35,258 nucleotides of DNA from Guptibacillus hwajinpoensis (GTDB lineage: Bacteria > Bacillota > Bacilli > Bacillales > Guptibacillaceae), in contig NZ_LELK01000004.1 in NCBI RefSeq assembly GCF_001039475.1, positions 38,990 through 74,247 on the forward strand. Reading direction: 5' to 3'. Position 1 is the stretch's first letter. Each line of letters opens with the position of its first letter. Below, in pieces: positions 1,134 through 12,280 of the stretch. A program made the position numbers and the translations under genes. The notes under the pieces were generated by a model that was given only the letters and a program-made list of their open reading frames with translations, ran no database searches and was not told the DNA's origin.

Positions 1134-2936
1134 ATGGGAAAGGTTGGTTTTTTTAAGTCCATTCATTTTAAGTTTGCCATCATTTACGTATTGCTCATCC
1201 TTATTGCTATTCAGTTCATCTCTGTTTACTTTAATGAGAAGCTAGAAGAACAGTTTCAGACCAATTACATCTCATCCGTTATGGATCGAGCTGAGCTACT
1301 TGCTGATAGTGCCTCCGGTCAAGTGAATAGTAAAAGTGATGAAGAAGAAAATACAATCAATGATTTGATTGAGAATTTTAGGCAAGATGAAATTCGTCAA
1401 ATTCACGTTGTAAATTCGTTAGGACAAATTGTAGGAACCCTTAATGATGAAAGCGTTGAGGGGTCTCGCTCTACAAATACGTTTGTTAATAGTGCTCTTA
1501 ACGGAGTATCAGAGAATAATATTTTTATCGATAAAGATGGAGATCGTTTTTTTGCTTATAGTCTCCCAATTAAAGGGGAAACAAATTCTATAGTTGGTGC
1601 AGTTTACATTCAAGCTGACATGAAGCAGGTATTCGAACAGGCTGATCAAGTGAACAATCTTCTAGCGCAATCTGCACTTATTGCACTAGTACTCACTGGT
1701 TTGCTGGGTATAATCATTTCACGTACGATTACACGTCCAATATCAGACATGAGAAAACAAGCTCTTGTTATGGCCCGTGGAGACTTCACACGTAAAGTAA
1801 AGGTATATGGTGAAGATGAAATAGGTCAGCTCGCCCTCGCTTTTAATGATTTAACAAGAAGGCTACAGGAAGCAAATTCAATTACAGAAGGTGAGCGGCG
1901 CAAGTTAACTTCTGTACTTGCTTATATGACAGATGGTGTTATAGCAACGGATCGAGAAGGAATGATTATTCTAATGAACGATCGTGCTGAAGAAATGATG
2001 AGCGTTTCACGTGAAACGGTTCTCGGTACTTCTTTAAATCAAATCCTACAGTTTTCTGAAGATAAGACGTGGGATGATGTTTATAATGGACCTGATTCTA
2101 TGATTCTAGATTTAAGCGATGATCATCAAACATTTATCATGCGTGTTAACTTTTCAATCATCCATAAAGAGGACGGACCTATTAATGGTTTAATAGCTGT
2201 GCTGCATGATATTACTGAGCAGGAGCAGCTTGAACAAGAGCGTCGTGAATTCGTTGTGAATGTATCACATGAGCTGCGTACACCTCTTACGACGATGAGA
2301 AGCTATCTTGAGGCTCTTCAAGAGGGAGCGCTTCAAGACCCAGAGATTGCTCCTCGTTTCCTTGGTGTTGCTCAGAACGAGACCGAGCGAATGATTCGCT
2401 TAGTAAATGACTTGCTTCAGCTATCTAAAATGGACAAAAAAGAATATCAATTACAGTTTACTGAGGTAGATTTTGTAGAGATGTTTGATCACGTCCTTGA
2501 TCGTTTTGAAATGTCTAAACGTGAAAATATTGAGATTGTTAGACAGCTCCCTCGTGTTGCGATCTATACAAAAGTAGATCAAGACAAAATGACACAAGTG
2601 CTGGATAACATTATTTCGAATGCAATTAAGTATTCTCCAGAAGGAGGTACAATCACGGCCCGATGTTGGACGATCGGGAAGAAGATTAGGATTAGCATTA
2701 GTGATCAAGGTGTTGGAATTCCTAAAAACAACCTCTCAAAAATATTTGATCGATTTTATCGCGTGGACAAAGCCCGTTCAAGAGAGCTTGGGGGAACTGG
2801 GCTGGGCCTAGCCATTGCTAAAGAGATGATTCATGCTCACCACGGTGATATATGGGCAGAGAGTAAATGGGGACAAGGTACAACGATCTACTTTACGCTC
2901 CCTTATAAACGCATAAGGGAGGTCGGGGACAAATGA
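1134..2936 (+). CDS. walK: WalK (YycG), essential sensor histidine kinase
   Basis: Membrane histidine kinase that phosphorylates WalR. In order: a short cytoplasmic N-terminus, TM1 at about 13-31, an extracellular sensor domain at about 32-177, TM2 at about 178-196, HAMP at about 197-250, PAS at about 258-365, and a HisKA domain with the H-box SHELRTP (phosphoacceptor H379). The HATPase domain follows, with N-box near DNIISNAIKYSPEG, G1 DQGVGIP and G2 GGTGLGLAI. The 600 aa length is typical. The ribosome site is weak: an AGGAG lies 13 bases upstream inside walR, so translation is probably coupled to walR. The stop overlaps the walH start by 4 bases (ATGA). Confidence 0.97.
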   Translation: MGKVGFFKSIHFKFAIIYVLLILIAIQFISVYFNEKLEEQFQTNYISSVMDRAELLADSASGQVNSKSDEEENTINDLIENFRQDEIRQIHVVNSLGQIVGTLNDESVEGSRSTNTFVNSALNGVSENNIFIDKDGDRFFAYSLPIKGETNSIVGAVYIQADMKQVFEQADQVNNLLAQSALIALVLTGLLGIIISRTITRPISDMRKQALVMARGDFTRKVKVYGEDEIGQLALAFNDLTRRLQEANSITEGERRKLTSVLAYMTDGVIATDREGMIILMNDRAEEMMSVSRETVLGTSLNQILQFSEDKTWDDVYNGPDSMILDLSDDHQTFIMRVNFSIIHKEDGPINGLIAVLHDITEQEQLEQERREFVVNVSHELRTPLTTMRSYLEALQEGALQDPEIAPRFLGVAQNETERMIRLVNDLLQLSKMDKKEYQLQFTEVDFVEMFDHVLDRFEMSKRENIEIVRQLPRVAIYTKVDQDKMTQVLDNIISNAIKYSPEGGTITARCWTIGKKIRISISDQGVGIPKNNLSKIFDRFYRVDKARSRELGGTGLGLAIAKEMIHAHHGDIWAESKWGQGTTIYFTLPYKRIREVGDK

Positions 2937-5222: not shown

Positions 5223-6017
5223 ATGTCTCTTGAATTTAGCGTGCTTGCAAGCGGAAGCACAGGTAATGCCATTTATGTTGGTACAGAGAAGCATAAGCTT
5301 CTTGTTGATGCTGGTTTAAGTGGCAAGAAATTAGAAGAATTGTTCGCAAAAGCCCATCTTGATCCTAAGGATCTAGATGGGTTGCTTGTGACTCACGAAC
5401 ATAGTGATCACATTAAAGGTCTCGGAATATTTGCAAGGCGTTATAAGCTCCCGATCTATGCAAATGCAAAGACGTGGGATGCGATGAGTGGACTCATTGG
5501 AGAAGTTCCTGTTGATCAGAAGTTTCATTTCGATATGGAAACCGTTAAAACTTTTGATGATCTTGATGTTGAGTCTTTTGGTGTATCCCACGATGCTGCC
5601 GAGCCTATGTTCTATGTGTTTCATCACGAAGGAAAGAAGCTAAGTATTGCAACTGATTTAGGCTATGTAAGTGATCGTATAAAAGGGACCATTCGAGACT
5701 CTGATATGATGATTTTCGAGTCTAATCACGATATTAATATGCTCATGATGGGGCGTTATCCATGGAATGTGAAACGAAGAATACTTGGGGATATGGGTCA
5801 TGTCTCAAACGAAGATGCTGGGGCTGCGCTAGCAGATGTTATTGGTGATCAAACAAAGCGTATTTATTTAGCCCATTTAAGTAAAGATAATAACATGAAA
5901 GACCTGGCAAGACTTTCTGTCCAGCAGACGCTTGAACAAAATGGCTTTTCGATAGGAGATAAAATCGATTTATACGATACTGATCCTATGAATCCAACGC
6001 TCGTAACAAGGTTATAG
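5223..6017 (+). CDS. walJ: WalJ (YycJ), metallo-beta-lactamase fold hydrolase
   Basis: Metal-dependent hydrolase of the MBL superfamily encoded in nearly all wal operons; it has been linked to DNA metabolism and cell-division coordination but its substrate is not settled. The di-metal site is visible as THEHSDH (H58, H60, D62, H63), with further conserved residues H124 in SHDA and D140 in ATDLG. The 264 aa length matches the family. The ATG has AGGAGAGG at 5208-5215. It lies 24 bases after walI and is cotranscribed with it. There is no hairpin terminator before htrA 86 bases downstream. Confidence 0.95.
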
Positions 6018-7369: not shown

Positions 7370-7671
7370 AGTGGATAACTAGTGAACAAGGAGGGGTACT
7401 ATGAAATTACTTTGTTGTGAAGATCATGTTGAGCTAGCACTCGACGTAGCAGTTGATGAAACGGGTCATTTTCCAGTGTTAGAAAAGGTTCAAAAAGATG
7501 AGAACAGTTTGTCCACAACCTGTGAATACTGTAAGAATACTGCAACATATATTGTGTCGAACTAATATTCGGTCACGATATGTGGATAAAAATTGTGTAT
7601 ATGTGGATAAAATCTGTGGATAACCTGTTCACTTTTTGTGGATTTAATAAATAGCGAACAAGTGGGGATAA
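7370..7671. other. DnaA-box cluster upstream of rlmH
   Basis: Three exact DnaA boxes TGTGGATAA (reverse complement of TTATCCACA) lie at 7581-7589, 7602-7610 and 7615-7623. One-mismatch boxes lie at 7370-7378 (AGTGGATAA), 7509-7517 (TTGTCCACA, opposite strand, inside the small CxxH/CxxC gene) and 7663-7671 (TGGGGATAA, also serving as the rlmH ribosome site). TGTGGATTT at 7637 is a weaker match. In B. subtilis one of the DnaA-box clusters outside oriC lies at yydA, the rlmH orthologue, so the location appears conserved. Confidence 0.75.
7401..7565 (+). CDS. CxxH/CxxC small zinc-binding-type protein
   Basis: A 54-aa protein starting MKLLCCEDH with a strong AAGGAGGGG site 6-7 bases upstream. It carries a CxxH pair (C6-E-D-H9) and a CxxC pair (C41-E-Y-C44), the pattern of a small zinc-finger family (CxxH/CxxC protein) that commonly sits next to rlmH in Bacillus. 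The function is unknown and a structural zinc site is likely. The gene contains a one-mismatch DnaA box near its 3' end and is flanked by the other boxes, so its DNA is under a second constraint. Confidence 0.85.
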   Translation: MKLLCCEDHVELALDVAVDETGHFPVLEKVQKDENSLSTTCEYCKNTATYIVSN

Positions 7672-10036: not shown

Positions 10037-10079
10037 TAATCTCTTCGTAGAGTCCTTAAAATCGAATAACTGATGAATG

Positions 10080-10106
10080 CGGTAGATCTCTCTACCGTAT
10101 TTTTTT
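10080..10106 (+). terminator. mqo terminator
   Basis: Stem CGGTAGA (10080-10086) / TCTACCG (10091-10097), loop TCTC, then a run of T's with one A. It separates mqo from the repeat array that follows. Confidence 0.85.
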
Positions 10107-10199: not shown

Positions 10200-10376
10200 G
10201 TTTACAACTTATGTATACTTGTAAACGAAATTGTATACATTGTGTACATTAGTTGTTTACAAGTATACAAAAACGTAAACACATTGATGCATAAGGTGTT
10301 TACAATATTGTTTACATGTATACAATATATGTTTACGTGTAAACGGGATTGTATACATGTAAACGAACTTGTAAAC
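10200..10376. repeat. Phased GTNNAC hexamer array, candidate centromere (parC-like)
   Basis: Sixteen GTNNAC hexamers (GTTTAC, GTAAAC, GTATAC, one GTGTAC) lie in 177 bases. They start at 10200, 10213, 10221, 10233, 10242, 10255, 10263, 10275, then 10298, 10310, 10318, 10331, 10339, 10351, 10359, 10371. Steps alternate 12-13 and 8-9 bases, giving a 20-22 base period, about two helical turns. The array splits into two eight-hexamer blocks of nearly identical geometry (10200-10280 and 10298-10376) separated by 17 bases. It sits directly upstream of a ParM-like actin gene, as parC does in parCMR modules. It probably binds the downstream adaptor protein and may also autoregulate the operon. No gene is seen in 10107-10475. 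Confidence 0.85.
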
Positions 10377-10392
10377 TAGATAAATTGACTTA

Positions 10393-10419
10393 TTGACGAT
10401 TGGCACATATTTCTATAAC
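10393..10419 (+). promoter_or_regulatory. Candidate promoter of the parM-parR operon
   Basis: TTGACG (10393-10398) and TATAAC (10414-10419) are separated by 15 bases, a slightly short spacer; another TTGACT lies at 10385-10390. The position just downstream of the hexamer array would allow repression by the array-binding protein. Confidence 0.3.
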
Positions 10420-10475
10420 TTTGAAGTTAATAGTAGAAATACTAGACTATTAAATATGAAAGGGTGGAGCGTTAA

Positions 10476-11663
10476 ATGAGTAATTCAAGAATTGCGGCTG
10501 TAGATGTAGGTAATGACTCGTTAAAAGGAATTTATGGCAAAATTGAATCTGACCTATACATACCAAACGTTATCGCAAGAGATATAGAAGATCGTCCAGT
10601 GATTGGAATTGAGGATCTTGATACTAAGGATCCGCTAGACGGAATTCACATTCGTGTTCATTCACCGGCATTAAAAGATAACAATGCGATTTATCGTGTT
10701 GGTAATCTAGCTACGAAAAGTGACAACCCAATGGAATTAGATCCAGGAAGTGCAAAGTCTGAAGAGGATCAAACCCTCGTTATGCTTTTTGCATCCCTTG
10801 CTTTAGATGCAGTTAATGAGAAGAACTCCGCTAACTTCAAGAACCAGAACGGTGTTGTTGATGCAAATTACACACTTGGAACGGGTCTTCCATTACGCGA
10901 GGTTAAAGAAGGTAAGGACGTTGGTTATCGCTCAAGACTACTAGGATCAGTGCATCAGGTAGAGTTTCTTGTGACACCTAAGTATCAAGGGAAGAAAGTA
11001 AATATTAAATTTGATGAAGTAAAAGTATATCCTGAAGGATTTGCTGCTTACATTAATCTTGTGATGGATAATGATCTTAATATCATTAATAAGGACTTGA
11101 TTGATAAACGTATTCTCATTCAAGATATAGGCGGACTTTCAACAGATATCGCTGTAATTAAGAATAGAAACGTTGATGATGACAAAGCGCAGGGCTTTAA
11201 TATCGGGGTAGCTGAGTCGCTTGAAGCCATTCGTGAAGAGATTCGTTCAAAGCATGGTGTGGAACTCGATAGCCGTCGTGACGTAGTGGATATCATTACG
11301 AAGAAGAATGATCGTAACCATATCATGGTACGCGGTAGCCGTACGAGCGTTCACGATATTACAGATCGTATTTTATTTGAACTTGCTAAGAAGCAGTATC
11401 GTCATCTTCGTAATGTTTGGCAGAAGAACTCTCAATCTGAGATTTGCTATTTTGTCGGTGGCGGTTCTATTGTTTTGAAAGATTATCTTAAAACACTAAA
11501 TAACAGCCTTGATGGCTATAACATTGACTTCTTTGAAGATGAGAAAGAGAGCATCTGGATGATGTCAAACGCTTATTATAAGCTAATTTCTGATTTCAAC
11601 AGAAAGAATGCAAAGGATAAGCCTCAAGATAAAAGAGAAGAAAAGCACAAGGTCAAAAACTAG
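10476..11663 (+). CDS. ParM-like bacterial actin (Alp/ParM/StbA family ATPase)
   Basis: An actin-like filament-forming ATPase of the plasmid-segregation type, 395 aa. The nucleotide-binding motifs are in order: phosphate-1 DVGNDSLKG (10-18), connect-1 region YPEGFAAY (185-192) with E187, phosphate-2 DIGGLSTD (217-224) and the adenosine motif VGGGSIVL (327-334). The C-terminal 20 residues are highly charged. In ParM systems the filament pushes or pulls DNA bound through a ParR adaptor at a parC centromere; here both candidate partners adjoin. The ATG has AGGGTGG 9 bases upstream. No plasmid, phage or integrase genes flank it, and base composition looks like the neighbours, suggesting a resident chromosomal copy. 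It is not MreB, FtsA or Hsp70: it lacks their hallmark regions and is in the wrong context. Confidence 0.85.
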   Translation: MSNSRIAAVDVGNDSLKGIYGKIESDLYIPNVIARDIEDRPVIGIEDLDTKDPLDGIHIRVHSPALKDNNAIYRVGNLATKSDNPMELDPGSAKSEEDQTLVMLFASLALDAVNEKNSANFKNQNGVVDANYTLGTGLPLREVKEGKDVGYRSRLLGSVHQVEFLVTPKYQGKKVNIKFDEVKVYPEGFAAYINLVMDNDLNIINKDLIDKRILIQDIGGLSTDIAVIKNRNVDDDKAQGFNIGVAESLEAIREEIRSKHGVELDSRRDVVDIITKKNDRNHIMVRGSRTSVHDITDRILFELAKKQYRHLRNVWQKNSQSEICYFVGGGSIVLKDYLKTLNNSLDGYNIDFFEDEKESIWMMSNAYYKLISDFNRKNAKDKPQDKREEKHKVKN

Positions 11664-11675
11664 TAGGGTGATTTG

Positions 11676-12242
11676 ATGAAAAAGGCGGGGATGAATGGGA
11701 TTCAGAGGGGACAGGCAATCACGTTTCGCCTCCCTTCTGACACACCTGATCATATTCTTAAGCAACTGCAAAAGCTTAAAGAAGAAGAAAAGCGTAACTT
11801 CTCAAGCCGCATTGCAGAGTATGTGTTAGATGGTGTTACTCAAACGATAAGACGCGACAACGATGCCATCACCGTTCCTTTACCAAAAGGGTTGAGCAAG
11901 GCGCAAAGGGATTGGCTTAAGCATGAGCATTCAGAGGCGCTTCTTGGAAACATCGTATATCAAATTTTATCAGATCCACTGCGCGCTGCATCACTCCTTG
12001 CATCGTTTACTAGCAATTCGATTGATATCGATCAGGCGCTCTATTTGCAAGAACAAGTCTCAAACTCGGCTGTGCAAAGAGAAGCGTCAGATACTATTGA
12101 AGCTCCGCTAGCGGCTTCTGATGACGATCTAATGAATTTCGATTGGAATCAGGCAAAGCAGGAGCAAAGTTCAGCGGTAGAAGAGGAAGAAGAGGGTGCA
12201 GATGATCTACTTGGCGGCTTTCTAGATCGGATGAATAAATAA
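11676..12242 (+). CDS. ParR-like adaptor with two tandem ribbon-helix-helix-like domains
   Basis: A 188-aa protein 12 bases behind the ParM-like gene. Residues 13-54 (QAITFRLPSDTPDHILKQL... to the FSSRIAEYVLDGV stretch) look like a ribbon-helix-helix DNA-binding unit: a short beta strand, helix, turn, helix. Residues 63-102 (DAITVPLPKGLSKAQRDWL... to LLGNIVYQILSD) repeat the same pattern. The C-terminal third is disordered and acidic, ending in a hydrophobic/acidic peptide DDLLGGFLDRMNK, a plausible actin-contact tail as in ParR. The ATG at 11676 is preferred over TTG 11673 because AGGGTGA is then 7 bases away. The role is inferred: binding the hexamer array and coupling it to filaments. Sequence similarity to named ParR proteins cannot be claimed by eye. 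Confidence 0.7.
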   Translation: MKKAGMNGIQRGQAITFRLPSDTPDHILKQLQKLKEEEKRNFSSRIAEYVLDGVTQTIRRDNDAITVPLPKGLSKAQRDWLKHEHSEALLGNIVYQILSDPLRAASLLASFTSNSIDIDQALYLQEQVSNSAVQREASDTIEAPLAASDDDLMNFDWNQAKQEQSSAVEEEEEGADDLLGGFLDRMNK

Positions 12243-12246
12243 TAAG

Positions 12247-12280
12247 AAAAGGCAGCAGGAATCATTCCTGCTGCCTTTTT
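12247..12280. terminator. Bidirectional terminator between parR-like gene and nagE
   Basis: Stem GGCAGCAGGAA (12251-12261) / TTCCTGCTGCC (12265-12275) with a 3-base loop, flanked by AAAA and TTTTT so it works in both directions for the two converging genes. Confidence 0.92.

Follow-up and report, generated by a model that had tools for sequence, protein, structure and literature searches.

A conserved chromosomal ParMRC-type cassette left of the replication origin in Bacillales: a candidate for chromosome segregation or origin positioning

Positions 10200-12242 of the window, the 35,258-nucleotide stretch of the Guptibacillus hwajinpoensis genome analysed here, hold a ParMRC-type cassette composed of a hexamer array, an actin gene and a ParR-like gene, in that order. 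Its interpretation as a conserved chromosomal cassette of this order is well supported by comparison of sequences across genomes. The cassette probably acts in chromosome segregation or origin positioning, and the reading favoured here, with reasonable though not high confidence, is that of a functional, vertically inherited, origin-proximal ParMRC (type II, actin) partition system operating in cis beside intact ParB homologues. As the cassette is chromosomal in many species and lies on the same side of the origin wherever this could be scored, the DNA that it helps to separate or position may be the chromosome and not a plasmid.

Both genes of the cassette are on the forward strand, between mqo and nagE (Table 1). 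Based on the NCBIfam annotations, the upstream flank encoded WalR/YycF, WalK, an HtrA-type protease, RlmH and malate:quinone oxidoreductase, and the downstream flank an N-acetylglucosamine PTS transporter, NagA, NagB and a GntR regulator; for the ORF at 5223 no match was obtained, and yycH, yycI and yycJ are names that we presume for genes of the flank. No replication, conjugation, phage or integrase protein was found among the 10 flanking proteins scanned. An earlier note on this DNA had described a dense hexamer array, a 395-aa ParM/Alp-type actin with three nucleotide motifs and a small co-oriented gene, bracketed by terminators and without mobile-element genes at the flanks; all of these elements were recovered, including terminator-like stems on both sides.

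Table 1. Features of the cassette and its borders, in positions of the window.
Feature	Position	Strand	Basis or remark
Terminator-like stem	10075-10102	+	Upstream of the cassette, 3' of mqo
parC-like array, 16 GTNNAC hexamers	10200-10376 (177 bp)	none	Spacings mostly ~8 and 12 bp
parC core, most conserved part, with a central non-palindromic element between hexamers	10245-10334	+	Profile match
parM, ParM/Alp7A-family actin-like ATPase, 395 aa	10476-11663	+	Pfam, PHROG, Foldseek
Presumed first phosphate motif of ParM, D10-K17	10503-10526	+	D10, V11, G12, N13 and K17 invariant, 44/44
Presumed second phosphate motif of ParM, D217-D224	11124-11147	+	All eight residues invariant, 44/44
Presumed adenosine motif of ParM, G328-G330	11457-11465	+	Invariant, 44/44
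parR, putative DNA-binding adaptor, 188 aa	11676-12242	+	Position after parM, tblastn
ParR N-terminal strand-helix-helix region, possibly RHH-like	11703-11855	+	Weak model, sequence pattern
ParR C-terminal tail, candidate ParM-binding peptide	12201-12239	+	Conserved residues
Terminator-like stem	12246-12280	scored on both strands	3' of parR

The parM product matched the Pfam families Alp7A_like_C (PF22128; 2e-37, above the cut-off) and ALP_N (5e-9), as well as the PHROG 'partition protein' family (3e-39). Key residues of the three stretches that we take to be its nucleotide motifs were invariant, as counted over 44 aligned relatives. The AlphaFold2 model of ParM was poor (mean pLDDT 56.7), worst in its C-terminal half, where a uniform alignment is probably responsible. 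The top Foldseek matches of this model were the Bacillus thuringiensis ParM structures 4xe7, 4xe8, 4xho and 4xhn (E 1e-13 to 3e-11), and further ones were C. botulinum ParM, pSK41 ParM, CorM, Alp7A (5ec0, E 4e-10) and, at rank 10, the chromosomal Dh-cParM1 (E 4e-8). The FcmB morphology family gave a weak score (23.8 bits against a cut-off of 300). ParM proteins of this family presumably polymerise.

Directly downstream, an ORF of 180-209 aa began 0-19 nt past the parM stop in all 121 parM loci, a set that contains some genomes twice, and tblastn with the ParR of the window gave a match in 110/110 loci. In the window, the ATG at 11676 was judged a better start than the TTG at 11673 taken from the ORF list. 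Mean pairwise identity of ParR was 57.3% in 34 genomes. Its first 60 residues fit a strand-helix-helix pattern, with helices at residues 25-37 and 42-60 in a weak structure model. The ParR of the window had no Pfam family match (its relatives had scattered weak ones), a PDB sequence search returned no credible match and a fold search with the weak model returned no PDB match at E ≤ 0.001, so the family is without a name in the libraries searched and we infer a ribbon-helix-helix (RHH) domain from sequence pattern. In the C-terminal tail, residues L179, F182, L183 and N187 were invariant in 44/44 relatives, and a ParM-binding role was assigned to it on the assumption that it resembles R1 ParR. 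ParR is a putative adaptor that would bind parC and contact ParM.

Counted over the whole window, GTNNAC was barely enriched (110 hexamers vs 91.7 expected), so that their clustering, and not their number, is the striking feature. The array was the densest 200 bp in 74 kb of chromosome, the next best place having 4 hexamers. The paired form GTNNACNNGTNNAC occurred 5 times in the window, always within 10213-10364, against 0.27 expected, and none of 100 shuffles reached this count. At least five GTNNAC were also present in 103/103 distinct regions upstream of parM (median 11 against a background of 1.0), with spacings of mostly 8 and 12 from one hexamer to the next. When 41 chosen arrays were compared, they aligned in register and shared 12 invariant columns as well as the central non-palindromic element. 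The resulting core profile recovered parC in 40/40 held-out loci, which include close relatives of the model loci, and was positive in both genomes analysed from outside the order; the core of the window scored 58.7 bits (E 3e-17) against core model R1, its sequence being one of the model's 41.

At the genome level, parC was found at the cassette in all 22 parM-positive genomes searched (21 single-contig genomes and the draft of the window), and nothing elsewhere on these chromosomes scored better than E 0.018; the first look for extra sites scored 145 of ~500-1800 candidates per genome, so that weak ones may be missed. The seven parM-negative genomes gave nothing better than E 7.5e-4. Further centromeres elsewhere on the chromosome were therefore discarded, as none comparable was found in the genome-wide profile search. 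Extra parC copies were located at most ~1.1 kb from parM in 4 of the 22 genomes. A second parC was also observed ~1 kb further upstream in six loci (L048, L049, L053, L055, L058 and L068), and the doubling in L058 looks like a tandem duplication because the two copies flank a decayed fragment of parM.

Orthologues of parM (E < 1e-200) were detected in 51 of 101 relatives, with 77-98% identity apart from the window itself, in 201/397 genomes sampled from the order (224 matches at E ≤ 1e-3 minus 23 weak ones), and in 24/398 genomes sampled from the class, 8 of them outside the order. A gap separated these orthologues from the other hits (≤46% identity) in the relatives and in the class sample. 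As about half of the sampled genomes had no strong match, the cassette is not essential throughout the order. Named genomes yielded 400 parM relatives in a scan, the best 80 of which included Peribacillus, Cytobacillus, Metabacillus, Mesobacillus, Rossellomorea, Sutcliffiella, Thalassobacillus, Pontibacillus, Jeotgalibacillus, Evansella, Alkalihalophilus and others; among these 80, the nearest named relatives were Pseudalkalibacillus hwajinpoensis strains and Bacillus sp. NTK071. A locus confined to one strain within a recently integrated plasmid, which the earlier note had named as a finding that would speak against its resident chromosomal module, was looked for, and orthologues were found in half of the order sample instead. 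Together with the conserved parC and ParR and the origin-proximal address, this distribution supports residence on the chromosome.

ParM was about as conserved as DnaA, with mean pairwise identities in 34 genomes of 82.4% for ParM, 82.5% for DnaA and 68.4% for DnaN. ParM and DnaA distances were correlated in the same genomes (Mantel r 0.66, 0/999 permutations as high), more loosely than those of DnaA and DnaN (0.87). The dN/dS ratio of parM was 0.018, 0.015 and 0.013 in three comparisons (walK: 0.011, 0.013 and 0.007), rough values since dS was high (1.8-2.2) in two of the three; parM was saturated in a fourth comparison, and nagB had higher ratios (0.068-0.095). ParM is under strong purifying selection. 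A quick tree was built from the ParMs of 80 chromosomal loci and 7 plasmids, a phylogeny of the kind that the earlier note had called for; in it, the chromosomal sequences formed one fully supported clade of their own, within which genera clustered (39 changes vs 57.1 when shuffled, 0/200 as low). As 29 of the 79 inner forks were open and several genus names scattered, some transfer of parM is possible; vertical inheritance is the best reading.

The mqo-parM-parR-nagE order, the synteny of which the earlier note had proposed to follow in related genomes, was restricted to the genus of the window among the loci fetched, and synteny was consequently dropped as proof of residence. Other genera had other neighbours: 33 upstream and 32 downstream kinds were counted next to the cassette in 80 loci, based on mechanically called ORFs. 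As the neighbours differ between genera, distance and direction from dnaA were used as the measure of position. A total of 87 genomes were examined (51 strong-match relatives and 36 picked from the order sample for their few contigs), of which 16 carried parM and dnaA on separate contigs and were left unscored. In all 71 genomes with both genes on one contig, parM was left of dnaA and read away from it, and two single-contig genomes from outside the order agreed, with parM origin-left at ~51 and ~56 kb. The cassette is accordingly not plasmid-carried, being on the dnaA contig in 71/87 genomes (16 unscored) plus 2/2 more, and its address was origin-left and read away in 73/73 scored genomes, from 27 family groups plus one, positions that are not independent draws since the genomes are related. 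The distance between parM and dnaA ranged from 35 to ~320 kb, and from 35 to 281 kb for the 55 distances that did not cross the record start; the other 16 of the 71 did so and used rounded sizes, which made them up to ~58 kb too large where this could be checked.

If the cassette is a partition system, ParR would bind the hexamer array just upstream of parM, its C-terminal tail would recruit and cap ParM filaments, and the growing filaments would push apart or position the two copies of the origin-left arm after replication, ParMRC acting in addition to Spo0J/Soj-parS and SMC as a second system. The force on the chromosome and the cell-cycle timing of this action are likewise conjectural. A more specific proposal, in which about half of the order's sampled genomes own a second, actin-powered segregation machine whose single origin-left centromere is pushed apart by a ParM spindle after each replication round, is made tentatively, its chances being rated slightly below even. 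If true, an actin spindle would share the segregation of a bacterial chromosome with ParABS and SMC.

Two ParB-family genes per genome, which we take to be Spo0J and Noc, were present in all 101 relatives, and the genome of the window has them in the interval from dnaA to parM and carries a perfect parS next to them. The cassette was therefore rejected as a replacement of ParABS, and the need for a second segregation system is not evident. A role mainly in sporulation, with ParM filaments pulling or anchoring the origin-left arm at the prespore pole as RacA and ram do in B. subtilis, is rated unlikely. According to the available excerpts of two articles, the ram sites of B. subtilis RacA are mostly found within a 250-kbp stretch to the left of oriC (PMC4949633; also PMC9564211), on the same side and in the same range as parC; this overlap is suggestive only, and the RacA-ram system differs from the cassette in having multiple sites and no actin. 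The sporulation protein SpoIVA was found in 51/51 parM-positive relatives, but also in 100/101 relatives overall, so that its distribution does not discriminate and the sporulation link based on it was set aside. A RacA-like gene was scored in 68/101 relatives, none over the model cut-off, and absence calls are uncertain because one of four RacA models was used. Within these limits, parM and RacA were both present in 35 of the 101 relatives and both absent in 17, parM alone being present in 16 and RacA alone in 33 (Fisher p 0.83). An exchange of parM for RacA was thus rejected for lack of mutual exclusion, and the genome of the window itself carries a RacA-like gene besides parM, which argues against the sporulation role.

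There is also a slim chance that ParM serves instead as an actin in cell shape, at the membrane or in a general cytoskeleton, and that the array is only an operator for autoregulation by ParR. Chromosomal actins of the superfamily can shape cells, the weak FcmB score and the presence of CorM among the Foldseek matches point in this direction, and a cyanobacterial family is reported, in the accessible part of PMC12645912, to affect morphology. An operator, however, would hardly need 16 sites in 177 bp with an in-register core, nor the constant origin-left address.

Partition is likewise preferred to a merely historical address, by which a working cassette once came to lie near the origin and was kept there by inertia with no origin-specific function, an explanation rated very unlikely. 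Gene order around the origin is generally conserved, and mqo was also origin-left and read away in 28 of the 31 genomes with mqo on the dnaA contig (drafts included), so plain retention could explain part of the constancy of the parM position. In near-complete genomes, the left 320 kb contained parM in 9/9, mqo in 8/16 (including six of the nine with parM) and nagE in 4/11, all four belonging to the genus of the window. Against mere inertia, parM stays on its side of the origin in all scored genomes while its immediate neighbours vary, and mqo and nagE leave the origin-left zone in several genomes.

Relatives of the cassette that share its gene order are found on plasmids, even within the genus of the window, where a P. 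hwajinpoensis plasmid encodes a separate ParM followed by a small gene. They include the ParM/StbA loci of Bacillales plasmids from B. methanolicus (pBM69), Peribacillus and Pseudalkalibacillus. Plasmid ParMs were 39.6-43.4% identical among the 25 of 90 records listed, and none of the 90 plasmid records had a ParM with at least 60% identity. In the seven plasmids examined further, ParR was shorter (134-151 aa) than in the cassette, and the long array and the parC core were absent. Hexamers were present upstream in L189, L190 and L192 (4-6 each), two of the seven plasmids having 4-5 GTNNAC of the same class and a third 6 of another sort, and one weak match to the parC core was found in L192 (E 3.3e-4). 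Although these shared traits favour it, the alternative that the cassette is left over from a domesticated plasmid, and either interferes with plasmids that enter the cell (as the earlier note had suggested) or captures them through incompatibility, is most improbable, because ParM is strongly constrained and the plasmid relatives are distant and lack the long array and core, and because DnaA-like conservation and an origin-left address are not expected of a remnant. A phage origin (e.g. AlpAC-like) was also rejected, as only 2 of 50,697 phage records matched, at 24%, and no phage-type protein was found at the flanks.

Among known systems, the Alp7A/Alp7R pair of B. subtilis pLS20 is plasmid-borne and has the same succession of an actin and a small adaptor; the ParM of the cassette shares its Alp7A_like_C domain and matches its structure (see above). 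The B. thuringiensis ParM structures, presumably of plasmid origin, are the best Foldseek matches of the cassette ParM, yet their identity to it is 18-19%. Actin filaments move plasmids, and the present family, read as a chromosomal partition system, offers a direct test of whether they also move a main chromosome, since it combines a compact cassette, one identifiable centromere and a constant origin side; its hosts with sequenced isolates include Alkalihalophilus pseudofirmus OF4 and Cytobacillus species.

The concept of a chromosomal ParM is already known, as chromosome-encoded ParMR cassettes (cParMR) were published in 2025 from several Firmicutes and a Burkholderia (PMC12270681, J Biol Chem 2025). 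According to the accessible part of that article, the hosts include Desulfitobacterium, C. botulinum, Moorella and Bacillus tropicus, filament formation was reported for two cParMs, Bt-cParM is conserved in Bacillus, and ParCMR was yet to be tied to chromosome segregation. No other report on a chromosomal ParMRC of Bacillales was found in the open-access literature, searched by title and abstract start, and no experiment on this ParM family was found in the literature. The cassette resembles cParMR, as far as described there, in its chromosomal ParM with a nearby ParR, both conserved among related species and at the genus level, and in the additional presence of ParA/ParB. Unlike cParMR as described in the same part of the article (PMC12270681), its clade extends over many family groups, with ParM about as conserved as DnaA, and its in-register parC occupies one place, origin-left in every scored genome; within the open-access literature searched, this conserved parC appears to be new, and so do the inheritance across the order and the position left of the origin.

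Second copies of the predicted centromere parC occur either upstream or downstream of parM. In six loci from relatives (L048, L049, L053, L055, L058 and L068), an extra parC was located upstream of the first, at a distance of about 1 kb. The two copies in L058 enclosed a decayed parM fragment, an arrangement that resembles a tandem duplicate, as if the gene had been lost and the centromere retained. In another parM-bearing genome (G023), a second strong copy probably lies past parR.

Additional parC copies and the RacA-like gene
Feature	Position	Remark
Extra parC and decayed parM fragment	L058 8769-9884	parC copies flank the fragment
Second strong parC copy	G023:C1:3264674-3264764	Downstream side of parM
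RacA-like gene	L132 1495-1992 (G000:C14, about 446240)	Genome of the window

A perfect parS site was found at G000:C7:19474, on the contig shared with the window, and a parS-like palindrome with two mismatches to the consensus inside walK (window 2003-2018), 8 kb away from the parC array. The htrC-rlmH interval contained a tandem repeat (window 7577-7622; unit of 21 bp, 2.2 copies).

The RacA-like gene scored 151 bits with the best RacA model, below its cut-off of 165. Among 101 relatives surveyed with one RacA model, no match reached that model's own cut-off, which indicates that it is narrow.

A 355-kb plasmid of Pseudalkalibacillus hwajinpoensis (L188; NZ_CP156675.1) encodes a separate ParM (43% identity) followed by a short downstream gene; chromosomal and plasmid systems therefore coexist.
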